DNA from: a virus
Virus record (IMG/VR): IMGVR_UViG_3300043446_004177
Span: 1-57,092 of that record
Length of the DNA: 57,092 bases
Strand: one strand, 5' to 3'
The position numbers and the translations under genes were made by a program. The first letter of the stretch is position 1. Each line of letters begins with the position of its first letter. This document shows, piece by piece, positions 4,928 to 46,681 of the stretch. Below the pieces are notes generated by a model. That model had not been told where the DNA came from. It was given only the letters and a program-made list of their open reading frames with translations, and did no database searches.

Positions 4928-5100
4928 TCTATCTCGCTCCTCAAAGATATCTTGGTCTCAAGCCGTTGGCGCTTCCAGAAGCCGCGCTTGATCTTACGCA
5001 ATGCTTTTGTGTTGTGCAGATAGCAATACAAGCTGCGCGCATAGCGGTTGAACGCATCAAACTCTGCGCCCCCCTTCAATACTGCGCGCGTGCCCATCAT
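4924..5100 (-). CDS. Small basic protein, 58 aa
   Basis: This frame fills the gap between portal and the 565-aa gene. It starts MMGTRAVLKGGAEFDAFNRY and ends in a Lys/Arg-rich helix (LRKIKRGFWKRQRLETK). Its ATG shares a base with the portal stop (TAATG), and its TGA overlaps the next ATG (ATGA), so translational coupling holds it in place on both sides. It has many positive charges and no membrane segment. Function is unknown; a small head or DNA-associated protein is likely from position. Confidence 0.75.
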   Translation of the reverse strand: MMGTRAVLKGGAEFDAFNRYARSLYCYLHNTKALRKIKRGFWKRQRLETKISLRSEIE

Positions 5101-7448
5101 TATGGATTTCTTCCTGTAATAGCTGGCAAAACATTACCTAAAAGCTCTTCCACAATACCTGTGCTTTCAGGATGCACGGCGATGTTCTGCGCAAGATCAA
5201 CCATCTGGATACGCTCTTTCGCAATCATCTCTGCTTGTTTCATTGCATTATCGGCCGCATCTTTTTGCATATCAGCAGCAAGACCTGCTGCTTTTATTTT
5301 TGCATCCATGGTCTTTGCATCTGCAAGTTGCTTCTTGATTTGAAGATCGGCAACTTTTGCAAGTTTCTCATGTTGATCAGGCCCTTGCGGCCCACCAATC
5401 CCCGCAATTTCTTTATCTTGCATGACTTTTGCCGCATCAATTTGAAGCTTCGCTTGATCAACAGCAAGTTTGCCTTGTGCCGACATTTGTTTCGTGTCAG
5501 CTTCCTGTTTGCGGATCTGTAACTCTGCGATCGCACGCTGCATTTCAGGTGGCATTTGACCTTGTGCTTGTGGCGGGATCATAAACTGATCAGGGTTCGA
5601 CCAGCCCATCGCCTTCAGTGCCGCGGTATCAATCGCAACTGGATCATACATTGAAGGATTTGAAGCTTGGATTTGTTTTAAACCAACCACTTTCATCAAG
5701 CGCTGTGTTTGTGACGCAGTATTAGGATCAGCTTGCGGAACAAGATCAACTTGGTTCAACGCGCGCAAAAATGTTTCTTGATCCCATGGGCGTGCAGGGC
5801 GGCGGTTCTGCTGCCAGAACGATTCAGGGTTTTCGCGGAAACAATTGACAAGCAGCTGGAACTCTTCTGCCTGCGCTGCATGCATGCGCTTGTGTACGCT
5901 GTTCAAGACCTTTGTCGCCTGATCAATCAACGCAATCGTTGTGCCGACAGGCGCGTCTTGCCTGCCTTCGCCGACAGCCATCTCGGCCGTGCCACCGATA
6001 CGCATGCCTGTCTGCGCCATGTTATCGGTCAAGCTCATCAAACCGCCGCCAACGTCTTTGTATGGCAACGGCATCACAGCTTGATTGATTGGCATGCCGC
6101 CTGTCTTCACAAGCGCGCCACCACCGGGCGGCACACGGAAGATGTTCGTGTTTTGACGAGCGCCCGTGTCTGCGTACAAAAAGCCGGGGAAGTTGGCATA
6201 CATCCCAGCATCGAGCATTTCACGCCACGCAGCTGTGAGCGCGTTGGTGGTGTTGCCGAGAATGTGAAGCAAACCAATATCGTAAAAACCCATGCCGGGG
6301 ACAAACGTATACTTGACAAAATTCTGTCGAGCTTCTGGCAGATCCTTTGTGTCTTCATCGTAATTCCTCACGATTGACAAGATCTCTCTAGACGACACAT
6401 CAATTGTCACGCGATAGGGGATCTCAAGCCCCGTCTCTTTGCCTTTGCGCTTATGTTCAAACCCTTGAATGTTCAACTCGCAATAGCATTCATAGATCTC
6501 GCGATCACGGTCTTCTGGATTTGATTGTTCGCTTGATATGCCTTGCTGTTCGTTCTTTGCGCGTTGTGCTGCGTCTAATGTCGTTTGCCTTGGCGTTGAC
6601 AAATCAATATCACGATACACACCAAGGATCTGCATACGCTTCACAGTTGACGGTCGCATCATAATGCGATGCGTGATGCGCTTTGCATTTGAAAGATCGG
6701 TTGCCGAGTTGTTGACAATAAGATCATCAGCATCGACGCTTTCGCTTACGGGCCTGCCACGCAATGGGCAGAAGTAAATCTTTTTAAACGCAGTGCCTCC
6801 GAAACCGAGCATGAGAAGCATGCGGTCTGTATCTGGGTAATACTCTTTTGCAGTGGAGGTAAGATAGTGGTTGAGATCGTCTTCGAGATCATTAGCCAAC
6901 TGATCAGACTCAAGGGTAGCATTGTTGTTATCCTCGCGGATCTTTAAAGGCCCATCAGTCGGGAGCAGTTCGCTTCTTGCGTTAGCTTGGAAGCGGAGCA
7001 CCGCTTCAAGCAAGAGCGGGTGTCGAATACGCGACATGCCTTCCACGGGCGCTCCATCTGCTGCCCCAGCAAGTCCCGGCACTTCAAGTTTAAGTCCGAG
7101 GAGCTTGATGCCTTGCGCTCGATCTTCAATCCATTCTTTTCGTGATTGCAAATCATCCTCAACCCCTTTTAGAAGATCATCCGCAATCCTGCCTAGCTCC
7201 ATCTGATCAATATCTTCAACGAGGTTATCAAACCATCCTGCGCGGCTAGACCCTTCGGCCTTCTCCAATGGCGAGCCGTCAAGCGTAAGAGTGATTGACC
7301 CGTCTGGGCCTTCAATCGTGAGCAAGTTGCCTTTATCGTCTCGGTCTTCTTGTGGCCCGTCTTCTGCCATTTCGATAATCAGGTCACCGAGATTGAGCTT
7401 CTCTTCCTCGGGTTGTTGTTGACGCAGATTGAGAGGGGCGAGTGCCAT
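5100..7448 (-). CDS. Portal protein (P22-type, podovirus)
   Basis: The 782-aa product has the composition and landmarks of podovirus/P22-like portals: a GMSRIRHPLLLEAVLRFQANARSELLP segment in the N-terminal third, LMLGFGGTAFKKIYFCP near residue 215, then RITHRIMM and a long C-terminal Ala/Gln/Lys-rich coiled coil (about 620-750) that would form the barrel. The family forms the dodecameric ring at one head vertex through which DNA is packaged and released. It follows terL by three bases, the usual terS-terL-portal order. Confidence 0.92.
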   Translation of the reverse strand: MALAPLNLRQQQPEEEKLNLGDLIIEMAEDGPQEDRDDKGNLLTIEGPDGSITLTLDGSPLEKAEGSSRAGWFDNLVEDIDQMELGRIADDLLKGVEDDLQSRKEWIEDRAQGIKLLGLKLEVPGLAGAADGAPVEGMSRIRHPLLLEAVLRFQANARSELLPTDGPLKIREDNNNATLESDQLANDLEDDLNHYLTSTAKEYYPDTDRMLLMLGFGGTAFKKIYFCPLRGRPVSESVDADDLIVNNSATDLSNAKRITHRIMMRPSTVKRMQILGVYRDIDLSTPRQTTLDAAQRAKNEQQGISSEQSNPEDRDREIYECYCELNIQGFEHKRKGKETGLEIPYRVTIDVSSREILSIVRNYDEDTKDLPEARQNFVKYTFVPGMGFYDIGLLHILGNTTNALTAAWREMLDAGMYANFPGFLYADTGARQNTNIFRVPPGGGALVKTGGMPINQAVMPLPYKDVGGGLMSLTDNMAQTGMRIGGTAEMAVGEGRQDAPVGTTIALIDQATKVLNSVHKRMHAAQAEEFQLLVNCFRENPESFWQQNRRPARPWDQETFLRALNQVDLVPQADPNTASQTQRLMKVVGLKQIQASNPSMYDPVAIDTAALKAMGWSNPDQFMIPPQAQGQMPPEMQRAIAELQIRKQEADTKQMSAQGKLAVDQAKLQIDAAKVMQDKEIAGIGGPQGPDQHEKLAKVADLQIKKQLADAKTMDAKIKAAGLAADMQKDAADNAMKQAEMIAKERIQMVDLAQNIAVHPESTGIVEELLGNVLPAITGRNP

Positions 7449-27998: not shown

Positions 27999-29843
27999 TC
28001 AAATCCCTCTATTTGCTATGGCAAGTGCCTTGGCGACGGTAGTGTCATCAAGGTTGAGCAAAGAAGATGTTTCTTTGCCTTGTTCTTTTTTAATCTTATC
28101 GACAAGATTTATCAACTTATCTGCCTTTGATTTTGAGTTTTCCTCAACCTTACCGCCAGTAGCATATGCGGGTTTATAGCCACCATAAAGCTCTTCATAA
28201 GCGCGGTTGAGATTTTGTTCAAAGGGAGACAGTGCACGCGTGGCATATCCTGCGCCTGTAGCTCCTACTGATGCTGCCTTTCCAACAGGAGAACCCGCCA
28301 AACGGCCTGCGCCATATGCTGTAGCGCCCATCAAGCGGGGCGATTGGAAAGCCGCCTGCGCGCTAAGAAGACCAATGTGTTTGAGAGCAGACGCTGGGTC
28401 ACCCATCGCTAGGCTTGTGCCTGCGTTGTAAAGATGAAAAGCGCCGCCTCCACCTTCAAGTATTTTCCCAACAGTTCCAGATGAGATAGCATCGTGCAAA
28501 GCGGCCCCTGCAGCCATATAAGGAACGCGCGGATCAACTTTACCAATGGCATTAATTACATTATTTCCCATAGGCGTTTTTAAATTGCGAATTGTTCTTT
28601 GAAGTTGAGCATTCGCTGTAGCTTTGTTAATTCCAAGCGTGCCAGAAATATTTTTCATGCTATCTTGGATGGCGCGATAATCGTCCATCATCTGAGAATA
28701 TTCAGGAGATACATCGCTTATTGCTTGTTTTGTTCCATGATAAAGCTCCCACAAAGCTGCAGATGTGCGTGGGTTATTTGTTGCTTGGGCAGCGGCACCA
28801 ATATCCTGTTTGAGCTTATCAAGGCTCTCAATCCCACGTTCTGGGTTGCCAGAGGGCAAAACGCTTCTGCGATAAAGATCGTTTTCCCATTTTATCAATG
28901 CTTTATGAGCATCATCACTGATTTCATTTGATCCTAGCTCACTTAATTTTGCTTTTGCAGAACTAAGTGAATCATAAATCGGTTGTAACGAAGCATCCTG
29001 TTGAAGAGCTGCAAAGTTTTCTTTTTTCTTAGCAGCCCAAGCTGTAATTTCATCATCTTTAATTTTTCTAAATGCATTGCTCATAGCATTGGCAAATTCA
29101 TTTGTGTCGCCCTCGCCTCTAGCAAAGACGTTAAATGCATTGCGGATCATCGGATCTTGAGAAGCGCCAGCTTGAAAAGCGCGTTCATAAGCAGATGGAG
29201 CAACTCCTGTTCCAAGAGAAACGGCTCCTTTTGTCCCTATTTTCCCGACATTGCCAATGGTTTTAGCGACACCGAGTGCCGCCTGCGTAGGATCCATAAG
29301 TGTGCCAGCCGTGCTGCCGATTTTTGAAGCCATTGATGCAAGGCGTCCAGCTTTGCTTGCTGTGCCTAAAGCTTTGGCACCCATACCAACTGCTCCAGCG
29401 CCTGCTGTGACAGGTATTGATCCAATAGAAAGAATAGATGCGGGATCATCATAAAGCGTGCGATAAAATTCTTCCTTTGAAGTAAAAGGTTTTACCAAAG
29501 CATTCAAAGCCGCTTCATCAGTTTCTTTTTGCTCAGGTGCCTGTTCGTATCCTAAAGCGCCTTTTGCTTTTGAATAAATGCCAGTTCCAATTGTGCCAAT
29601 GCCTTCAGCCGTCTCGCCCCAATTCCAAGGCGCAATGGCATGAAGAGTGCCCGCTACGTTTTCATAAGCACTCTTTGGCAAATTGGATGCAACGCCTTTC
29701 CAATACTCCCCACGTTCCATTTGTGCAGGATCTTTTGGCGCAGAAGGCTGCGTCGTTTGGTAGGCCGCATAGGGATCATATTGAGAAGGCGTCTCAAGGT
29801 TTACACCTTCTGTGGGCGCTGCGGGTGCAGGTACGTCAGCCAT
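27999..29843 (-). CDS. Putative internal/ejection protein, 614 aa
   Basis: Proline-rich start (MADVPAPAAPTEGVN), glycine/alanine-rich hydrophobic stretches (IPVTAGAGAVGMGAKALGTA), a coiled-coil middle and several hydrophobic segments (AGAALHDAISSGTVGK). It ends with YATGGKV and a helical tail. Composition and position next to the 1182-aa transglycosylase protein fit P22-like ejection proteins that pass into the cell envelope with DNA. No catalytic motif seen. Confidence 0.68.
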   Translation of the reverse strand: MADVPAPAAPTEGVNLETPSQYDPYAAYQTTQPSAPKDPAQMERGEYWKGVASNLPKSAYENVAGTLHAIAPWNWGETAEGIGTIGTGIYSKAKGALGYEQAPEQKETDEAALNALVKPFTSKEEFYRTLYDDPASILSIGSIPVTAGAGAVGMGAKALGTASKAGRLASMASKIGSTAGTLMDPTQAALGVAKTIGNVGKIGTKGAVSLGTGVAPSAYERAFQAGASQDPMIRNAFNVFARGEGDTNEFANAMSNAFRKIKDDEITAWAAKKKENFAALQQDASLQPIYDSLSSAKAKLSELGSNEISDDAHKALIKWENDLYRRSVLPSGNPERGIESLDKLKQDIGAAAQATNNPRTSAALWELYHGTKQAISDVSPEYSQMMDDYRAIQDSMKNISGTLGINKATANAQLQRTIRNLKTPMGNNVINAIGKVDPRVPYMAAGAALHDAISSGTVGKILEGGGGAFHLYNAGTSLAMGDPASALKHIGLLSAQAAFQSPRLMGATAYGAGRLAGSPVGKAASVGATGAGYATRALSPFEQNLNRAYEELYGGYKPAYATGGKVEENSKSKADKLINLVDKIKKEQGKETSSLLNLDDTTVAKALAIANRGI

Positions 29844-29852
29844 GTGTAAACC

Positions 29853-32800
29853 TCATTGAGCAGGGACTTCGCCAATTTGACCCTTTTTGGGGCCATCAGG
29901 AATGATGAATTTAGTACGCGGTGGCAATCTTTTAACAGCTTGCAACCGCTCGGCAGGCGTTGAGCCTTCAATTGTAATAGCCTCTTGAGCTCTTTTGCCC
30001 TCTTGAGAGCCAGTTGTAACAGCGCGACCTGCTTCGGTAGAGCCAGCGAAAGGTTCTGTCTCTTCGTAAGCTTTCTTGCGATAGTCTTCATATTTGTTGT
30101 TGCGCGTAAACTGATTGATGTAACCAGTGATGTTTTTAGGCTGACCCGCATCATCCCATGTACGATACATGTCATTTGAGAAATCTGCAGCAGCCATACG
30201 ATTTGTGATGTTCTTATAAAGAGCATCTGGATTATCAGATGGTTTTGGAGCAACAATCATTGCATCACGCAAAGATGCAGCTGGGGCACCTTCAGCCATG
30301 CTATTTGCAGTTTTGATAGCAATATCCGTGGCAAGTTTATATGCCGCATCAAAACCAGCAGACTCTGCAGAGAAATTATCAATCCCCATTTTTTGAAGGA
30401 AGCTAGAAAGATTAGCCAACGACTCAGAAGCGCCTGCACCACCGCCTTGGTATTTTTGATAAATGTGAGCAAGCTCTGCAAGTTGCGGACGGCTAACTGC
30501 ATAGTCAGCCATAAATTTGGATGCCTTAGTATTAAAATCCTTATAGTTATCAATTATTGGCTGAAGGTAAGCCGATTGAGAAAGGATCACAGGAACGCCA
30601 TTAACGTCTCCACCGCCCTTACGAACAATTTCAAGATATTTATCCCCGGGCACTTCTATAGGAGTGCCGTCAAGAGAATAGACCGTTTTTGTTTGACCTG
30701 CGATTTTTGCTGTTTCTGCTTCCTTCTCAAGAGGAAGTTTTGCATAGCTTTCGCGCAACTTCATTCCTTGATCGCGATACGTCACAGCCTGCGCGCGCAT
30801 CATGTTTGCCTGCTGAATTTTTGTTTCAGCAGCGCGAATGTATTCAGGAATACCGCTTGCAGTCCATTTGTGCGCTTCTTCTTCTAAAGCCAAAGCCTGT
30901 TTGTTAGACTCTTCGGCTAAACCAAAATATTTTTGAACATCAGGATGCGCTTCAGCGGCCGCATAAATTTGGTCAGCCTTATCCATACCCATTGGCTGGC
31001 CTTCTTTAGGCGTTGCGGGAGGCACGGGAGCCCCAACATCAGTTGCTGTTTTTGGGGCAGCGCCGCCTTCTTGCGGAGCCGCTTGTGCCATAGCTGCAGG
31101 AGGAGCAATTCCGCCTTGTGGTGCGGGAGCGCCTGCAGGAGCACCAGCGATGCCTCCTGCTGCGGGAGCGCCGCCTGCAATGCCGCCTGCCGCAGGAGGA
31201 GCAAAGCCTTCTCCGCCTGAACCTGCCATCCCAACAAAGCTTGGCGGCAGACCCATCTCAACAGCGGCTTGAGCTCGCTCTTGCGGGCTGACAACGCGGT
31301 TATTCCACGCATCAAAGAAATTACCACCGGGGACAGGTGAGAACCGTTGCGCCATGAGGCCCATGGTATTCTTCATAGCTTCAGACTGACGCAGAGCGAT
31401 TTCAGACTGTTGAGCGCGCAGGCCAGCATATGTCTTTGCGCCGCCGCCAATACCAGCAAGCAAAGCGCCGCCAAGGAACGGGCTCTTTGACTCTGCCATG
31501 CTGCCAAGGCCTGCAAGAACCGAAAGAAGGATATCGGTGCTATCAGGTTTGCCAACATTAAATGTTGGGCTCATGGGCGATGATTGTGCTTCGCTAGAAC
31601 CGAAAGCGGGAATGTCTGCTTGCTTTTGCAAATTACGCGCAGCAGTCCACGGCCCCCAACCATGCTCGGCCGCATATTTGGTTGACCAATCAATAGCAGC
31701 CTTTTGGTTTGCAGGATCGCGAGCGTCTAAACCTGTCTGTTTTGTAAACTCATCACCAAGGCCGGGGCGCGGATATTTTTGCGATTGGTCACCATAATGA
31801 AGTTGCGCGATGCCAAATGAAGATCCTTCGTCGCCAACGGCGCGCGGATTAAACCCGCTCTCACCATGAAACACTTTAGCTGCAAAGTTGGGGTCAATAC
31901 CCGCGCGTTTTGCAGATTCCATCGTGTAATTGCGCCAGAAATCTGGACTTGATTCATCAAGAGGACCACCGTCTTCCTTGTGAATACGCCCGCCATTTTT
32001 CATAAACATCATGGCAAACTTAGCGATGTTGGCAAGGTCACTCATACCGCTTCCGCCTTGGCTTGGCGGAGCACCCGCTACAGCAAGCTGATGCGTATCT
32101 TTTTCTGTCGGAATATCTAGCTTTGTTTTGCTTTCAGCCTCATCATCACCATAAGGCATACCGCCATCGGCAAAGCCTTTTGATTTTAGCCAATCATAAT
32201 CTTTATAAAGGCTCATTCCTGTTTTTGCGAGACTGCCAAGTTGGCTCAATTCGCTTTCTGGAAGATCAGGTGCAGCGCCGGGCGTCATTAATTTGCCAAC
32301 TTGAATGTTGGACTCAGGGACATATCCAATGCCGCCATATGGCATACCGCCTGCCGCAAAACCCATTCCTGTATGCTCAGGATGCACAGCGCCGCCTTCA
32401 GAAGTTGCCTTGTTATAGTCAACAGTCTTATAGCCCGCGGCAATGCCAACGGCTTCTGGATGCTTCTTTTCAACTTCGTCAGCCATAAAGCCGATATGGG
32501 TCTGCTCGTTTGGGTCGCCTTTGTATTTAAATTTATAGATTGGCAGACCTTCATCGCTTTCGCCGATACGCTTAATGTCTTCCTTAAGACGGCGATCAGA
32601 GAAGAACGGCATAGGTTGCGTTGTAGTCGTAGTTGAACCAGAAAGAGCGCCTGTGCCCATCGCAATATTTGCGAGAAATTGGGCAATCTGGAATGGATAT
32701 GCCTGTTGTTGCAAAAATTGATTGTAAAGAGCTGTTTTGCCAGCCTGTTCGGTTTGCTGACCAAGCGTCCCCGCGCCAAGCTGTGCCTGCGCGCCTTGAA

Positions 32801-33401
32801 GACCTGCGGTTTGCGCGCCCGCTCCAAGCGCTCCTAACTGATTATAAAGAGCGCCGCTTTGGGCGAGCCCTTGCATATAATTTTGAGCTGCGTTTTGATA
32901 GCCTTGATTTGCCATTTGCGCGAGCGTTTGGCCAGAAGCAAGATTTTGTTGGCCCATCAAAGCAGCTTGAGCAATGTCTGAACGATTGCCGCCAAATGCG
33001 CCTTGACCAATTGCGCTTCCGCGTAAGGCGGCTTGCTGCTGTTGATTGATATTTTGCATTTGCGCGGCAGTAGCGCCCATCGCATTTTGCAAATAAGGGT
33101 TCATATATCCCTGAACGCCTTGCTGGTATCCTTCTGGAGAAAAACCCTGAGCGGTCCTTGAGGTGCCCGCCATAGCTGCTTGATATGCAGGTTGGGCGGC
33201 TCCCGCCATCTGATTGATATTGCCAATACCAGCCTGTTGCTGCTGATTTAATTGAGCTACAAACGCTGAAGGATCGGTGCTATATTGCTGAAATGGGCGA
33301 CCAGCGACATCTTCTGCGCGTTTATTAACTGCATTATATCGAGCCAATACTTCGGGCGGTATTTGGACGCTTTGCGTAGTCGTGCCTGTTTTGCCACCCA
33401 T
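29853..33401 (-). CDS. Ejection protein with S74 chaperone-like and lytic transglycosylase domains, 1182 aa
   Basis: N-terminal Gln/Ala-rich region (1-260). Residues about 265-330 match the intramolecular chaperone/peptidase S74 type: SDRRLKEDIKRIGES, YKFKYKG and HIGFMADEVEKKHPEAVG. GG motifs follow (SEGGAVH, AAGGMPYGG, ADGGMPYGD, KNGGRIHKEDGG), then an SLT-type transglycosylase (AGIDPNFAAKVFHGESGFNP, SSFGIAQLHYG; about 490-590; the E of HGESG is the likely catalytic acid). A Gly/Ala/Pro-rich linker (about 720-800) and coiled coils follow. It probably opens peptidoglycan during entry. An S74-like module inside an internal protein is unusual. Confidence 0.85.
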   Translation of the reverse strand: MGGKTGTTTQSVQIPPEVLARYNAVNKRAEDVAGRPFQQYSTDPSAFVAQLNQQQQAGIGNINQMAGAAQPAYQAAMAGTSRTAQGFSPEGYQQGVQGYMNPYLQNAMGATAAQMQNINQQQQAALRGSAIGQGAFGGNRSDIAQAALMGQQNLASGQTLAQMANQGYQNAAQNYMQGLAQSGALYNQLGALGAGAQTAGLQGAQAQLGAGTLGQQTEQAGKTALYNQFLQQQAYPFQIAQFLANIAMGTGALSGSTTTTTQPMPFFSDRRLKEDIKRIGESDEGLPIYKFKYKGDPNEQTHIGFMADEVEKKHPEAVGIAAGYKTVDYNKATSEGGAVHPEHTGMGFAAGGMPYGGIGYVPESNIQVGKLMTPGAAPDLPESELSQLGSLAKTGMSLYKDYDWLKSKGFADGGMPYGDDEAESKTKLDIPTEKDTHQLAVAGAPPSQGGSGMSDLANIAKFAMMFMKNGGRIHKEDGGPLDESSPDFWRNYTMESAKRAGIDPNFAAKVFHGESGFNPRAVGDEGSSFGIAQLHYGDQSQKYPRPGLGDEFTKQTGLDARDPANQKAAIDWSTKYAAEHGWGPWTAARNLQKQADIPAFGSSEAQSSPMSPTFNVGKPDSTDILLSVLAGLGSMAESKSPFLGGALLAGIGGGAKTYAGLRAQQSEIALRQSEAMKNTMGLMAQRFSPVPGGNFFDAWNNRVVSPQERAQAAVEMGLPPSFVGMAGSGGEGFAPPAAGGIAGGAPAAGGIAGAPAGAPAPQGGIAPPAAMAQAAPQEGGAAPKTATDVGAPVPPATPKEGQPMGMDKADQIYAAAEAHPDVQKYFGLAEESNKQALALEEEAHKWTASGIPEYIRAAETKIQQANMMRAQAVTYRDQGMKLRESYAKLPLEKEAETAKIAGQTKTVYSLDGTPIEVPGDKYLEIVRKGGGDVNGVPVILSQSAYLQPIIDNYKDFNTKASKFMADYAVSRPQLAELAHIYQKYQGGGAGASESLANLSSFLQKMGIDNFSAESAGFDAAYKLATDIAIKTANSMAEGAPAASLRDAMIVAPKPSDNPDALYKNITNRMAAADFSNDMYRTWDDAGQPKNITGYINQFTRNNKYEDYRKKAYEETEPFAGSTEAGRAVTTGSQEGKRAQEAITIEGSTPAERLQAVKRLPPRTKFIIPDGPKKGQIGEVPAQ

Positions 33402-33402
33402 C

Positions 33403-33906
33403 TTAATGCTCCGTCACATTCTCATGTCCAGTCTGGACATTATATAAGAAAAAAGCCCCAGCTGGCGGCCCGAAGCTATTCTCATAAAATTTAATTTTGG
33501 CCTCAGTTCGGTGATTCGAAAGAACGCCAATGATCAAGGGAAGGTTAAGATCATCCGCCACTTGCTTGGAAAAATCACACAAGGTCCGAGCGTGGCCTTT
33601 TGCATATTTTCCGCGCGTACGACGAAATTCAGGGGCGACAAAAATAGCCTTTTCCTCAAGCATCCAATCGTCAGAATACCACATTTGGGATAGCCGCAAA
33701 AGAACAGCTGCTTCTATTTTCTCTCCCGGCGCACCGATTATACCTACGAGCCCCTGCCAAAGATAAAGAGCGGGTTTGATCATGGCGAGCATTTTTTCAG
33801 GGTTAACGCCGCGAATGCCATTTTCTTCCCAAGCGCGAAGGGCAAGCTCAAGCATGGCTTCTTCGTCGGCTGGGGTTCCAAGGCGGATTTTTAATTCTTC
33901 CGACAT
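33403..33906 (-). CDS. GNAT-family acetyltransferase, 167 aa
   Basis: EELKIRLGTPADEEAMLELA, a central strand with EKAIFVAPEFRRTRGKYAKG (acetyl-CoA loop R..G.A..L) and LNLPLIIGVLSNHRTEAKIK near the end. The pattern is that of GNAT enzymes. Such genes recur in the structural cassettes of related uncultured podophages, so a role in modifying a virion or host protein is possible. Substrate unknown. Confidence 0.85.
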   Translation of the reverse strand: MSEELKIRLGTPADEEAMLELALRAWEENGIRGVNPEKMLAMIKPALYLWQGLVGIIGAPGEKIEAAVLLRLSQMWYSDDWMLEEKAIFVAPEFRRTRGKYAKGHARTLCDFSKQVADDLNLPLIIGVLSNHRTEAKIKFYENSFGPPAGAFFLYNVQTGHENVTEH

Positions 33907-37568: not shown

Positions 37569-38279
37569 TTACCTCGTTGGAGTTGCGACAATAGCAGGTG
37601 AATAAGGTGCCCAAGCAGAAGATTGAAATTTCTTTCTTGATTCTTCTGTGCGAGCGCCGTTCAAAAGGGCCTGATATTGACCTTCATATGTTTGAGCCAT
37701 AGCGGGGTCGTCATTCACGCGACCAAAATTTCTTTGATAAGCAGAAATATAAATCATTGATGCCATGATGAAGAGATCAGGAAGATAAGTGCTAATAAAT
37801 GTTGTTGTGTTGGTTGCCGAAAGGGGCGTTGATCGAATTGTTCCTGTCAAACGTACTTGATAAGCAACGCTTGGTGGCGGACCAATAATAATATTTTGAC
37901 TGGTGCGACCCGCAGTTGTTGAATCTCCGCCATAAACAGCAAAAACTACAGGCACACCAGAAGGCATTCCAGTCGGAAAAACATTTTGGATATATTCTTT
38001 TGCCACGGGGAGCAAAGTTGTTGAAACACCAGAATTGATGATTTCAACGGTCTGAAGTGTGACAAAAGACGAAGTCGGGATCGTCAATGTATTATTATTG
38101 ATCGTTAATGAATATGAAGTATTGCTTACTTGCGTTGATAAAAAGTCCAAATCACGCTGAATACGCAATTCGGCGTAATCAATCATAGAGGGAAGGATAA
38201 TTTGGAAATTAGCGTCCGTTGACGGGACAACCGCCATTGTGGCGATTTGCTGGACGTAGGACGAATAAGTAAGAGACAT
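37569..38279 (-). CDS. Neck adaptor protein (SU10-adaptor-like), 236 aa
   Basis: YVQQIATMAVVPSTDANFQI, PSMIDYAELRIQRDLDFLST, and a later PDLFIMASMIYISAYQRNFG. These match podovirus adaptor proteins joining portal and tail. It stands beside the gp10-like gene, in the neck/tail part. Confidence 0.8.
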   Translation of the reverse strand: MSLTYSSYVQQIATMAVVPSTDANFQIILPSMIDYAELRIQRDLDFLSTQVSNTSYSLTINNNTLTIPTSSFVTLQTVEIINSGVSTTLLPVAKEYIQNVFPTGMPSGVPVVFAVYGGDSTTAGRTSQNIIIGPPPSVAYQVRLTGTIRSTPLSATNTTTFISTYLPDLFIMASMIYISAYQRNFGRVNDDPAMAQTYEGQYQALLNGARTEESRKKFQSSAWAPYSPAIVATPTR

Positions 38280-40076: not shown

Positions 40077-41648
40077 TCACTCGTATAAAATATTCCAGTA
40101 GCCGTTTAGAAAGGTCGTTGAGTAAGATGGGTCAATTTGCAATTGAACCGCTGTCAAAGTTCCGCCCAAAGATAACCCGCCTGCAAAAAAACCAGCTTGC
40201 GGAGAGCTACCCATTTCCGTACCTTGAATTACCCAATAATCGCTTCCAACATTTGTAATTGTGCAAGAAAAACTCCCATTTCCTGATCCTGTACTTACTA
40301 AACAGCACCACAGCCCACCAGCTGAAAGAGAACTTTTATCTCCTGCTGTTGTGTTAAGATAACTATAATAGCTTGTTGCATAGGTTGGTGTTGCGCCATA
40401 TCCCAAACGTATCCATAAATAAAATGAACTTCCATTTGGTGTTATACTCCAACCTGTGACAGTAATCCTTCTAACCCAAGAAGGAATACCTGTAAAAGAA
40501 GAAGATGTTCCACTTGTTAAACTTTTATATGTTTCTTGAACAAGAGTTACCCCACCTGCATCAGAAGTGATCAATCCATCATTGGCAATTTGAACGGTTG
40601 ATTGAAGTGTGTTTGCTGTTGACCCAGATGTCGTCGACGCTGGCGCTGTCCAAAAATCAATAATGCCAGAACCGCCTGTGCCCGTGCCATTGCCAGCTTT
40701 CACCGTAAAATTTTGTCCTGTTATATTGGTTCCAGTCGTCGCAGGGACACGGATTGAATTGGCTGTCGTTGTTGCCGTTCCGTCTCCTGAACCAAAAATT
40801 GAATCACCAGAATTATTAATAACAAGACGAGTTACTGGAGTTGCTGTTCCATTTGGCGATGTAGCAAAATTAAGTGCGCCGGGCATATCTGCTGAAGTTC
40901 CCGGTGTGCCATCGACGGTCGCAATAATTGTTGCCGCTGTTTGAAATGATGAATCCCATCCATCAAAATAAATTGACCCAAGTTGATCACCAGATAAAAC
41001 TGTTGTTGGTGTTGTTTCTGTCCCTCTTGATGAACGTAAACGAAAATCTGGACCATCCGTAGTGGATACATATTGTGTCAAATATGCTGATACTGCTGTA
41101 TCGTTTGTCAAACTTAATAATACGCTGTTTGTTGTTGATGACCCGATAGTTAAATTATCAGAGACACTAAAAGTTTGCGCGCTTTGTGGTGCGTTGCGAA
41201 TATTTGTTCCGTCTGAATAAATGAGCGCTGCTTTGCCATTTTGAATTGTAACGCCCGTACCAGATGCTGTTTTTATTGTGACGGTATATGTGCTTTGGTT
41301 CGCCGAAGAAATTGCATTTCGAACAACCCACATTCCGCCCAAAGGAAGGGGAGTTGTTCCAAACCCTGTATTCGGAATTGTTATTGTAATATTCCCAGTC
41401 AAGGGAACCGCACCGCCAGATGTCCCGCTTTGAATAACAAGCTGTTGTGCCGTATACCAAAAAACACCATTTGTGTCTGCGGCAGTCGCGCTCGTTAGCG
41501 CGGTTGTTCCTGAAGCTCCAACATAAACAATATAAGCAGAACCAAATGACTGATCAATGGACGTAAAATCGCTATTGAGCGTCAGGCCCCAACCTGTATC
41601 GCCAACATTTGGTTCTGTTATCTTTTTGTTATTTGTAATCGTAGCCAT
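40077..41648 (-). CDS. Tail fibre/receptor-binding-like protein, 523 aa
   Basis: MATITNNKKITEPNVGDTGW is a conserved N-terminus of tail-fibre-type proteins. The middle is Thr/Ser/Gly-rich beta repeat. The C-terminal 120 residues (FTGIPSWVRRITVTGWSITP and later) form a distinct beta-sandwich-like receptor domain found at the ends of phage fibres. Likely a second host-recognition protein. Confidence 0.82.
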   Translation of the reverse strand: MATITNNKKITEPNVGDTGWGLTLNSDFTSIDQSFGSAYIVYVGASGTTALTSATAADTNGVFWYTAQQLVIQSGTSGGAVPLTGNITITIPNTGFGTTPLPLGGMWVVRNAISSANQSTYTVTIKTASGTGVTIQNGKAALIYSDGTNIRNAPQSAQTFSVSDNLTIGSSTTNSVLLSLTNDTAVSAYLTQYVSTTDGPDFRLRSSRGTETTPTTVLSGDQLGSIYFDGWDSSFQTAATIIATVDGTPGTSADMPGALNFATSPNGTATPVTRLVINNSGDSIFGSGDGTATTTANSIRVPATTGTNITGQNFTVKAGNGTGTGGSGIIDFWTAPASTTSGSTANTLQSTVQIANDGLITSDAGGVTLVQETYKSLTSGTSSSFTGIPSWVRRITVTGWSITPNGSSFYLWIRLGYGATPTYATSYYSYLNTTAGDKSSLSAGGLWCCLVSTGSGNGSFSCTITNVGSDYWVIQGTEMGSSPQAGFFAGGLSLGGTLTAVQLQIDPSYSTTFLNGYWNILYE

Positions 41649-42025: not shown

Positions 42026-45000
42026 TTAACCCCAACCAGTTCCAGCTGGACCAAATGCTGCCGCACTTTGAGTGTCAAGTTGTTGCAAATTAAAATACAA
42101 CACTCTTGGAGTTGTGGCTGTACCAGCCGATGTTAAGTTTGCACTCAAATTATATTGCGGAATAATTGTTCCTTGCGTTGTAATTTTCAAAATACCGCGC
42201 AACGTAATTGTATAAACACCAGAGGCAGTTGTGCTTGCTGCTGTCACAATATTGCTTGTACTGATATTAACCGCATTGAATGAGAAGTTTGCAGTTGCGC
42301 CACCTTCAGTTGGAGAGCTTAATGACATTCCGCTAAATGTTCCAACAGCATTTCCGGTGCCAAGAAGGTTAATTCTGGCTTGAGAGCTTGTTGTTGATAC
42401 TGTACCTCTCGTAAATGTGCATGAAAGGTCTATAAAATATGTACCGACAGATAACGTGATTGTATCATTTGCTGATGGCAACAATACTTGCAACGTTGTT
42501 TCTGATGTTGCTGTCAAACTTGTGCCAACGCCAGACGTATAATTTGTAATTGGAATTGTGCCGCGCTTGAAGTTTGTATTTGTCGTGGCAGTCATAATTG
42601 TGCCGTCATATTCAACGACACCAGCTTCAGGAGTTGTCAGGTTTGTGCCTGAAGTAAATTTTAAAGGCGCACTATTTGCAGCTGCTGCGCCTGCCGCAAT
42701 ATGAAGTTCTGCAGTTGGCGAAGTCGTTCCAACCCCAACACTTCCATTAAAAAAATTTATTCCACCGTTTGAATATATAGCATAATTATTTGTTGCACCT
42801 GATGGCGTGGATATATAAATACCGTAGTTGTTTGAACTAGCTGCGGTTACGTTATCAACATAAATACCGTAAGCATTAGTAACTGTTTGGTTTGTGCCTT
42901 TTGCGTAAGTTAAAGCGGTGATACCAGTAACAGATGATGTTGTGTAAGCAGACGCACTGTCACCACCATTAAAGGCAACCATAAGACCACGTTGCGTTCC
43001 TGTTGCCGTAGTGGGGGCATCATACCTTAAACCGATACCATTGATTGTCGTAGAGGTTATAATACCAATATTGGTATTTGAATCCCCAATCTGGAAAATA
43101 TCATTTACGTTTGAAGCATTTTGAGTGCCGATGTTTACTTGGCCTGTGCTAGCAATACGCATACATTCAATTAATGCACCAGTAGAATCTGCTGTATAAA
43201 ACTGAAGTCTGCCTTGAACAATTCCTGTGCTTGGAGTTGCATCTGCCGAACTACGAATCAAAGAAGATTTAACAAATGATGTTCCATCTGTGCCGTTGAA
43301 TTGAATTTGACCCAAAGCGTCACCAGAAGCTACTGCCGTATATGTTCCGATAGCGCCGCCTGATTTATTGAATGTATAATATGGGTTTGCGTTCCATCCA
43401 TATTGACCTAAAGATGATGTATTAAGTGATATTCCATGAACTTGAATGCGTGGTGTAATTGCGGTTGATGATGCAACCGTGTCATAAGAAGTTGATGACC
43501 CAATTAAAAGGTTGCCAGACGTATTAATACGCATACGTTCAGACTGGCTGGCGGTCTTAAATATAATAGCATCAGTTGTGCCTGCACCAGTCGTGGACTG
43601 CAGCGTTAATGTGCTTGATGCAGCAATTCCGCCGCTAAGATTAGGCATAACGTTATTGGCTGTGCCATTAGCATAAAAACCATAGGTTGTGCCGCCACCT
43701 GTTGCGGTGTTTATTGCGGAATAGAAACCATATGATGTTTTACCTGCGCCAACTGCCGCAGTATCTTGCGCCCTAAATCCATAATTGGTTGTTGCGCTGA
43801 TTAAATCATTTACAACATCAAATCCAAACTGGTTCGTCATTGAACCAGAAATTGTTCCTTCAGTTGCTCTGAAGTGCGTGTAATTTGTTGGAGTAGCACC
43901 AGATGCAATATTTGCTATTGATTGAATATTAAACGCCGATGATGTTACATCACTTTGAACTGTTCCAGTTGAATAAATACCATAAGCAGTTGTTGAGCCC
44001 GTTATATTTTTTGTAAGTTGCAAAGTTACTGCTGGATTGCCTGTTCCACCAATAGAAACGCCACCATCAGTGCGAATACGCATAGCTTCTGTGCTATTTG
44101 TGGCAAAAGCAATAATTCCGCTAGCACTTGATGCATTTATTGTGTGAGTATCGCCAGCGTTAGTCGTGGTAGACGAAGTAAACAAAAGTTGTCTACCAGT
44201 GCTAGATGTTCCTGCTCGGAGATATGTGCCAATTGAAGATTGATAAACATCCAAAATAGCAGCAGGCGCAGCAGTCCCAATCCCCACGTTACCGGAGGAG
44301 TCAATACGCATACGTTCAACAAGACCGCTTCCCGTTCCCGGATTAATTGGCGCTGTCCAAAATTCCAAATTCATACCGCCAGTCGTATCTGAAGACTGTG
44401 TTTGCGCGGCAGAAGCAATAATTGATGCGCCAAATTTTGGATTAGTTGTTGTAAAATCTGGATCAGTTGAACCGAATTTGATTGCTGGCGTATATTTTGA
44501 TGTTGTGTTCATTCCACCCGCAAGCAATTCCAAACCTGCGCCTGAACCGTCAAAAGAAGTAGCACCCGCTCCTGTGTTTGCAATTCTTCCAATCGCTGTT
44601 GTTGATGAGCCACTTACATGAAGTAATGTCGCTGGAGAAGCAGTCCCAATCCCCACATTGCCTGACGTATTAATCGTCATCGCGGTCGTAGCGCCGTTAT
44701 TTCCGACCTTGAACGAGATTGCATCAGATGTGCCGACACCGCTTGTTGATTGCAATGTAAGCGCAGATGACGCTGCAGTGCCGCCAATGATTGTTGCGGC
44801 AGTCAAAGACGTAAGAGTTGGTGTAGCTGAATAGGATGGGGCAACACCTACGCCGCCCGAAACAAGCACAGAACCTGTCGCGACATCCGCCAGTTTTGCA
44901 ATCGTCGCTGCGCCTGAAGCGTAAAGAAGATCACCTGTCGTGTATGACGTTAAGCCCGTGCCGCCATTCCCGACTCCGAGCGTACCCGCAAGTGTCACCG

Positions 45001-46681
45001 CACCCGTTGTGGCGGATGAAGGTGTAAGACCCGTTGTGCCTGCGGAGAATGATGTAACACCCGCGCCAGACGGAATAGACGACGACCAAGTTGGCGCGCC
45101 GCCAGTAGTAGCAACGAGGATTTGTCCTGTCGTGCCTGCCGCAGTTGTTGCCATCGCTGATGTAGTTGATCCGTAGACCACACCGTATTGCGTCAAGGCA
45201 GTTGATTGACCTGTTCCACCATTTGTGACGGGAAGGGTTCCTGTCACGCCCGCCGTAAGGCTTATTTGTTGATAAGAAGGAGCCGCACCTGCTCCATTTG
45301 AAATAAGAGCGTAATTTGCTGTTCCTGCATTTAGTTTTGAAAGAGCGCTTGCGGTTGAAGCATAAAGTAAATCGCCAATAGTGTAGGTTGACTGACCCGT
45401 GCCGCCATAAGATGCGGCAATTGTTGATGCATTCCATGTACCCGCAGTAAGCGTTCCTACGCCTGTTATGCCAGTATATGAGCCGCTAATTCTTGCTGAC
45501 GCAATTGTTCCAGAAGAAATTTGAGAAGCGGCGATGCTAATTGATACATCAGTTGCAGAAGTAATCTGCCCTTGAGCATTAACAATAATTTGAGGAACAG
45601 TTGCTGCGCCACCATATGTGGCTGCCGTAACGCCTGTATTTGCGATGCTAACAGTTCCAGAAACAGTAATCGGCCCACCAGTAAGACCAGTCCCTGTATT
45701 GACAGCTGTCACTGTTCCAGCGCCAGTGATTGTTGTCCAAGAAGGAGCTACGCCAGCGCCGTTTGTTGTTAGCAATTGTCCAGCTGTGCCGGGGGTTAAT
45801 TGCGTCCAACCTGAAACGCCGCGATAAAAAAATGAACCGACTGTGTTGCCGAAAGCAACATCCATAACTGATGATAAAGAAACGCCTGATGGGGCGGCTG
45901 GTCCTGTTGATGAGTTACCGACAACATAGCCGCCAGAGATTGAAGCCAAGGAAATTGTACGATTGGCCGTAAGATCTCCGCCGCCTGACAAGCCTGTGCC
46001 CGCAGAAATTGTTATCGTGTTGCTTGCTGCGCCAATATTTGATGGGGTGATTGTAATATTGGATGCGCTTGTTATGCGGCCATATGAATCAACTGTAATT
46101 TGCGGCAAAACGGTTGTCGAGCCGTATGTTGATGCGGTGACACCTGTTGTTGTGAGTGCAATTGTGCCCGTTGTTGTGATTGGCCCACCCGTAAGACCCG
46201 CGCCTGTCGCGACAGATGTGACAGATCCTGTGCCGTATGACTGAGCCTTGACGAAGGCAGTCGTGGCAATTTTGGTTGAATTATCCAAAGATGTCGGCGT
46301 TGGAGCCGTTGGCGTGCCTGTAAAAGCAGGGGATGCCAAAGGCGCGGCCCCCATGGCTGATCGAGCTTGTGATGCCGTCAAATCTTGAGGGTTTGTTGAA
46401 CCAGAAGTATTGTTGCCCTTGATGGTAAATGCCGCCATAGGGGCAAGATAAGTATTTGTCACGCCATCATTGTTAAGACCGATTGTACCAGTTGTCGTGA
46501 TTGTGCCGCCAGATAAAGGCGCATCAGCCGTTATTGATGTTACGGTGCCGCCATTAGCATTAAGGTCGGCAATAGCTTGCGTGGTTGTGCGTGCTGAAAT
46601 CCCGCCTTGAACAACGGCGACTTCTTCTGATCCGTTTAATGAAGTTACTGATGGGAGGTTTGTTGTAGTCGTATTTGCCAT
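42026..46681 (-). CDS. Major tail fibre, 1551 aa
   Basis: MANTTTTNLPSVTSLNGSEE, then repeats of the types GTGLTGGPIT..GT, TGVTASTYGS and GVAPSWT in the first third, and repeated (D)SSGNVGIGTAAPAAI-like units between residues about 680 and 1100. The last 150 residues are a beta jelly-roll-like tip (TIPITNYTSGVGTSLTATSE and on). It has no C-terminal S74 chaperone, although NVGIGT repeats often precede one. Trimeric fibre that binds the host. Highly repetitive, with strong Thr/Ser/Gly bias. Confidence 0.88.
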   Translation of the reverse strand: MANTTTTNLPSVTSLNGSEEVAVVQGGISARTTTQAIADLNANGGTVTSITADAPLSGGTITTTGTIGLNNDGVTNTYLAPMAAFTIKGNNTSGSTNPQDLTASQARSAMGAAPLASPAFTGTPTAPTPTSLDNSTKIATTAFVKAQSYGTGSVTSVATGAGLTGGPITTTGTIALTTTGVTASTYGSTTVLPQITVDSYGRITSASNITITPSNIGAASNTITISAGTGLSGGGDLTANRTISLASISGGYVVGNSSTGPAAPSGVSLSSVMDVAFGNTVGSFFYRGVSGWTQLTPGTAGQLLTTNGAGVAPSWTTITGAGTVTAVNTGTGLTGGPITVSGTVSIANTGVTAATYGGAATVPQIIVNAQGQITSATDVSISIAASQISSGTIASARISGSYTGITGVGTLTAGTWNASTIAASYGGTGQSTYTIGDLLYASTASALSKLNAGTANYALISNGAGAAPSYQQISLTAGVTGTLPVTNGGTGQSTALTQYGVVYGSTTSAMATTAAGTTGQILVATTGGAPTWSSSIPSGAGVTSFSAGTTGLTPSSATTGAVTLAGTLGVGNGGTGLTSYTTGDLLYASGAATIAKLADVATGSVLVSGGVGVAPSYSATPTLTSLTAATIIGGTAASSALTLQSTSGVGTSDAISFKVGNNGATTAMTINTSGNVGIGTASPATLLHVSGSSTTAIGRIANTGAGATSFDGSGAGLELLAGGMNTTSKYTPAIKFGSTDPDFTTTNPKFGASIIASAAQTQSSDTTGGMNLEFWTAPINPGTGSGLVERMRIDSSGNVGIGTAAPAAILDVYQSSIGTYLRAGTSSTGRQLLFTSSTTTNAGDTHTINASSASGIIAFATNSTEAMRIRTDGGVSIGGTGNPAVTLQLTKNITGSTTAYGIYSTGTVQSDVTSSAFNIQSIANIASGATPTNYTHFRATEGTISGSMTNQFGFDVVNDLISATTNYGFRAQDTAAVGAGKTSYGFYSAINTATGGGTTYGFYANGTANNVMPNLSGGIAASSTLTLQSTTGAGTTDAIIFKTASQSERMRINTSGNLLIGSSTSYDTVASSTAITPRIQVHGISLNTSSLGQYGWNANPYYTFNKSGGAIGTYTAVASGDALGQIQFNGTDGTSFVKSSLIRSSADATPSTGIVQGRLQFYTADSTGALIECMRIASTGQVNIGTQNASNVNDIFQIGDSNTNIGIITSTTINGIGLRYDAPTTATGTQRGLMVAFNGGDSASAYTTSSVTGITALTYAKGTNQTVTNAYGIYVDNVTAASSNNYGIYISTPSGATNNYAIYSNGGINFFNGSVGVGTTSPTAELHIAAGAAAANSAPLKFTSGTNLTTPEAGVVEYDGTIMTATTNTNFKRGTIPITNYTSGVGTSLTATSETTLQVLLPSANDTITLSVGTYFIDLSCTFTRGTVSTTSSQARINLLGTGNAVGTFSGMSLSSPTEGGATANFSFNAVNISTSNIVTAASTTASGVYTITLRGILKITTQGTIIPQYNLSANLTSAGTATTPRVLYFNLQQLDTQSAAAFGPAGTGWG

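Follow-up and report, generated by a model that had tools for sequence, protein, structure and literature searches.

An S74 domain with a conserved Ser-Lys dyad inside an apparently fused podophage ejection protein

S74 domains are known as self-removing fibre chaperones and as the switch that releases the animal transcription factor MyRF. In the window analysed here, the whole 57,092-nucleotide stretch of virus record IMGVR_UViG_3300043446_004177, one such domain lies in the interior of an ejection-type protein encoded by a single open reading frame (33401..29853, minus strand, 1182 aa). This raises the questions of how the domain came to lie there and whether it could still cut the chain that carries it. 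The parts of the protein are as follows.

29853..33401, minus strand: apparently fused ejection protein, 1182 aa, comprising N-domain, S74, linker, SLT and helical C-terminal part
32601..33401, minus strand: N-terminal ejection domain, residues 1-267, matched by PHROG 6121 and PHROG 4287
32637..32678, minus strand: conserved segment FLANIAMGTGALSG, lying just ahead of S74 (site 1), from the alignment of relatives
32403..32600, minus strand: S74 domain, residues 268-333, from PF13884, model confidence and S74 profile matches
32583..32600, minus strand: SDRRLK motif with the predicted dyad S268/K273 and predicted cut F267-S268, from alignment with MyRF and conservation
32001..32042, minus strand: hydrophobic segment SDLANIAKFAMMFM, residues 454-467, corresponding to the one found ahead of a second S74 in relatives
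31632..31922, minus strand: SLT-type lytic transglycosylase domain, about residues 494-590 (PF01464)

The N-domain is matched by PHROG 6121 ('virion structural protein', E 4.8e-24) and PHROG 4287 ('DNA ejection protein', E 1.1e-14), and it is by this homology that we class the protein as ejection-type. Both matches span residues 1-333, so that they take in the S74 domain and end with it. An AlphaFold2 model of residues 1-345 renders the N-domain as mostly helical, and since its confidence there is low we claim no fold. For the S74 domain itself, PF13884 matches residues 268-318 with E 1.3e-10 and a score of 41.8 bits, where 22 is the cut-off; comparison with relatives extends its end to about residue 333, and its strands and helix are modelled at a pLDDT of about 91-95 over residues 271-330. 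An S74 profile matched four solved S74 domains at E <0.001 (6f45, 3gud, 7dc3 and 8jov), whereas a PDB search with the single sequence gave no match. Foldseek found no significant PDB match for either the 1-345 or the full-length model, and structure comparison recovered the MyRF ICA only at Z 3.8, over 64 residues. The PF13884 match, the only one to S74 in the 57 kb record (32448-32600, minus strand), and the ejection families over residues 1-333 bear out the initial annotation in placing an S74 domain inside an ejection-type protein.

That annotation also put an SLT transglycosylase after the S74 domain. Its match is weaker than was implied: against the PF01464 cut-off of 21.3 bits, the protein scan scored 19.2 and the genome scan 22. 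SLT is matched by 6 of 21 fused relatives, at best with 9e-15, and with this backing we regard the weak domain as probably genuine. An ES-type motif, GESGFNP, occupies residues 513-519, and from it the catalytic glutamate is likely Glu514 (31860-31862). In the alignment of the same fused relatives the hydrolase slot behind S74 varies, being SLT in 6 and Phage_lysozyme2 in 2 of 21.

The origin of the arrangement is suggested by phages in which the protein is not fused. There, S74 is the usual C-terminus of a podophage ejection protein of roughly 300-440 aa belonging to PHROG 4287/6121, whose members are of about 390 aa with S74 at the end. Named examples are EBPR podovirus 2 gp27 and the proteins of Sulfitobacter phages pCB2047-A/C and Rhizobium phages RHph_I3_18 and RHEph18; Bradyrhizobium phage ppBeUSDA76-2 and Pseudomonas phage PAE2 add further C-terminal S74 ejection proteins, and in several phages S74 at the end of an ejection protein is already annotated. 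These proteins resemble that of the window in N-domain family, in a short S74 with the dyad and in lying beside ejection genes, except that the N-domain of PAE2 matches PHROG 598 rather than 4287/6121. They differ in that S74 is terminal and a gene of its own encodes the next ejection protein, while in the window the two are fused. In the named phages the S74 protein (303-367 aa) lies just upstream of a protein of 491-659 aa, which in EBPR podovirus 2 is annotated as a peptidoglycan hydrolase. The next gene begins -3 to +6 bases from the S74 stop in 58 of 60 unfused phages with a readable next gene, and in 13 of these it follows directly in frame past that stop; fusion is therefore a short step. 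Because the unfused phages have an N-domain-S74 gene adjoining a second ejection gene, the window protein resembles the first podophage ejection protein joined to the second, with S74 left internal.

Better-known ejection proteins resemble it in part. PAE2 carries its S74 on a P22 gp7-family protein, and likeness to gp7 runs through this phage, by common membership of PHROG 598 (DNA ejection) and by place in the gene order, the window N-domain itself matching PHROG 6121/4287. P22 gp7 differs in having no S74, and its database record states that the host protease OpdA cuts off the first 20 residues. Podophage ejection proteins of the T7 gp16 type are likewise internal virion proteins that carry a murein-degrading domain (PMC8954989), but without S74 and without fusion to the first ejection protein. 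The surrounding genes in the window are these.

33403..33906, minus strand: small GNAT-acetyltransferase-like gene directly upstream of the ejection gene (Acetyltransf_7, E 0.086, below cut-off)
27999..29843, minus strand: downstream gene, 614 aa, whose position makes it a candidate for another ejection protein (compare MW202675 and P22 7-20-16)
5100-7448: SU10-type portal, by family match
37569-38279: SU10 adaptor, by family match
42026..46681, minus strand: tail fibre without S74 (PHROG 18345, tail fiber, E 5e-16)

The same upstream neighbour is annotated as an acetyltransferase in several related podophages, and the downstream product had no family match in Pfam and PHROG scans. The portal and adaptor matches suggest that the virus is a podovirus whose neck is of SU10-like type.

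An unusual domain order could also arise if assembly had wrongly joined two genes near 32600, and that order is all that speaks for such an error. A query restricted to residues 1-262 of the N-domain, which contain no S74, was used to search for relatives. At least 383 matched, so that relatives number in the hundreds, and 80 loci were kept. Of all complete ORFs with an N-domain match, 58 carry a single internal S74, 20 carry two, 6 none and 1 a terminal S74. The 78 complete ORFs with S74 inside, which repeat the architecture of the window protein, include a few contigs counted twice and do not equal 78 independent genomes. Most sampled relatives nevertheless share the arrangement, and the fusion also occurs in the GenBank phage MW202675 and in a bacterial MAG (L043). 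This recurrence refutes a mis-assembly near 32600, the chance of which we consider negligible. The best BFVD matches to the full-length model, A0A6J5N916 (1329 aa) and A0A6J5LD05 (1487 aa), and also A0A6J5SB99, are uncultured Caudovirales proteins automatically named 'Intramolecular chaperone auto-processing domain containing protein', and as modelled they probably share the window architecture.

A different origin, transfer of the domain from the phage's own fibre, was implied by the initial annotation, which noted that the fibre has fibre-like repeats and no S74 tip. The second observation stands: the fibre at 42026-46681 has neither an S74 match nor an SDxxxK motif, and it contains two exact copies of VGIGT. 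A second fibre-like protein (40077-41648, PHROG 9942) is also without S74. The idea that the domain was moved does not survive comparison with relatives, where S74 is the normal end of a widespread podophage ejection family. At least five fused relatives (G004, G014, G016, G017 and G019) carry S74 both in the ejection protein and in a separate fibre-type ORF. Against the ejection-S74 profile the fibre copies score no more than 17-40 bits, and behind the core they possess an additional C-terminal helix. A tree, built from few columns and weakly resolved, separates them from all 151 ejection copies with support of 73/84. A transfer from fibre to ejection protein in this phage thus appears very improbable.

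Whether the internal domain could cut depends on its Ser-Lys dyad. In MyRF the cut falls between P586 and S587, and S587A or K592A abolishes it; these residues correspond to S911/K916 of the endosialidase NF (endoNF) (PMC8326128). In the S74 profile the SDRRLK motif aligns column for column with MyRF, with Lys at Ser+5; the MyRF structure in that alignment has Ala at the Ser position, as the S587A mutant would. None of the 155 distinct S74 domains found departs from S-D-x3-K, and 93 of these are internal copies, while many columns outside the motif vary among relatives; in a 45-row alignment of relatives nine columns are invariant, including S, D and K. The first S74 of six two-domain proteins (L111, L204, L209, L217, L218 and L222) has strongly diverged (SDEREKTN..., 35-42 bits), with Ser and Lys kept.

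The S74 domains of fibres and the MyRF ICA are thus alike the window domain in fold, by profile, and in a dyad in register. They differ in having a C-terminal coiled-coil helix and in trimerising a beta-helical stalk; the window S74 is short, internal and placed behind a helical domain. MyRF cuts only once trimeric, with the chain from an adjacent subunit threading the domain ring, and it is the coiled-coil helix that drives its trimerisation (PMC8326128). Unfused ejection-type copies stop 2-15 residues past the core, without such a helix, and the window-protein model has no long helix between 334 and 345, so that the ejection-type domain lacks the feature which classically follows the core in fibres. 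This absence counts against cutting and weakens the claim that the domain trimerises.

Across the relatives S74 behaves, as judged from sequence, as a cassette that is gained and lost. It is precisely missing from six fused proteins (L200, L203, L207, L212, L213 and L215), the gap opening directly behind TTTTQxP and closing immediately ahead of the conserved GG..GYVP region. The N-domain tree groups the S74-less fused proteins into a single clade (100/100) that lies within the S74 carriers (99/87, 98/91), and this nested position indicates loss. Two S74 domains are present in L016, L020, L021, L026, L038, L100, L111 and L204 and in the further fused proteins L209-L211, L217, L218, L221, L222 and L227. 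These forms are scattered on separate branches of the tree, so a second S74 has been gained or lost repeatedly. The second copies follow a hydrophobic segment, and the corresponding site of the window protein is empty (31965-32042), the segment being followed directly by GGRIHKEDGG (31965-31994).

We suggest the following model. Two adjacent podophage ejection genes, of which the first (N-domain, gp7-like) natively ends in a short S74, would have fused into one, leaving S74 between the N-domain and a second, peptidoglycan-degrading ejection protein. As the N-domains gather at virion assembly, neighbouring S74 domains would meet, and the Ser268-Lys273 pair would cut the chain just before Ser268. 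The predicted N-terminal product, residues 1-267, would be a 267-aa ejection protein, and the remainder a 915-aa S74-SLT-C-terminal protein, akin to those that other phages encode as separate genes. We put the probability of the cut, and with it of this reading, at about 0.5. The comparisons above show the layout of the protein, its family, the invariance of the dyad and the coming and going of S74 as a cassette, and from them we infer oligomer-triggered self-cutting with its two products.

Cleavage of the internal protein by an assembling S74 domain, which the initial annotation had proposed as its other option, is plausible given the invariance of both catalytic residues, and is the leading mechanism. 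Since most sampled relatives share the arrangement, the junction between the two parts is probably a cutting site built into the chain. The size of truncated orthologues also favours cutting: about two dozen unfused orthologues in a Bradyrhizobium-type family, with 56-79% N-domain identity, lack S74 and end near its expected start, at 284-305 aa against the 294-300 expected for a cut product. Against it, the literature searched reports no cutting in any member of the family, and the structure searches gave no significant solved match, with MyRF at only Z 3.8. Among open-licence papers we found none on S74 in ejection proteins, its internal position, its duplication or its precise loss, a silence that is weak evidence; the main text of the PhiGT1 paper, which gives virion mass spectra, does not mention S74 (PMC10386132).

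The domain might instead stay uncut and serve only as a folding or oligomerisation module of a single-chain ejection protein. A continuous chain evidently works in the S74-less fused relatives; the proteins of that clade (L200, L203, L207 and L212 among them) either remain a single chain or are cut by other means, and since one fused clade does without S74, cutting is not always needed. The lack of the helix linked to trimerisation, on which cutting in MyRF depends, points the same way, and a structural role could account for the conservation of the Ser and Asp with which the domain opens. Against this, no internal copy has lost either catalytic residue, not even the diverged first copies of L111 and L204, and we think an uncut module unlikely, though it deserves serious weight. 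Another possibility, that S74 merely persists from the fusion and does nothing today, would fit its precise loss in one clade and its loss in many unfused orthologues, which make it dispensable somewhere. The nine invariant columns with S, D and K among them, and the recurrence of second copies on separate branches of the tree, speak for selection, and a leftover seems to us improbable.

If the cutting model holds, it may extend beyond this protein. S74 could be the built-in protease of ejection polyproteins, yielding two products where there is one S74 and three where there are two by self-cutting triggered on assembly, with the cassettes gained and lost at two fixed sites; this broader proposal is tentative. 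A cassette-like S74 conserved in ejection proteins, with its dyad intact when fused, suggests a polyprotein strategy of tailed phages and offers a way to time or count ejection proteins. The S74 content of many ejection proteins also explains why databases label them 'tail fiber' or 'chaperone of endosialidase'.
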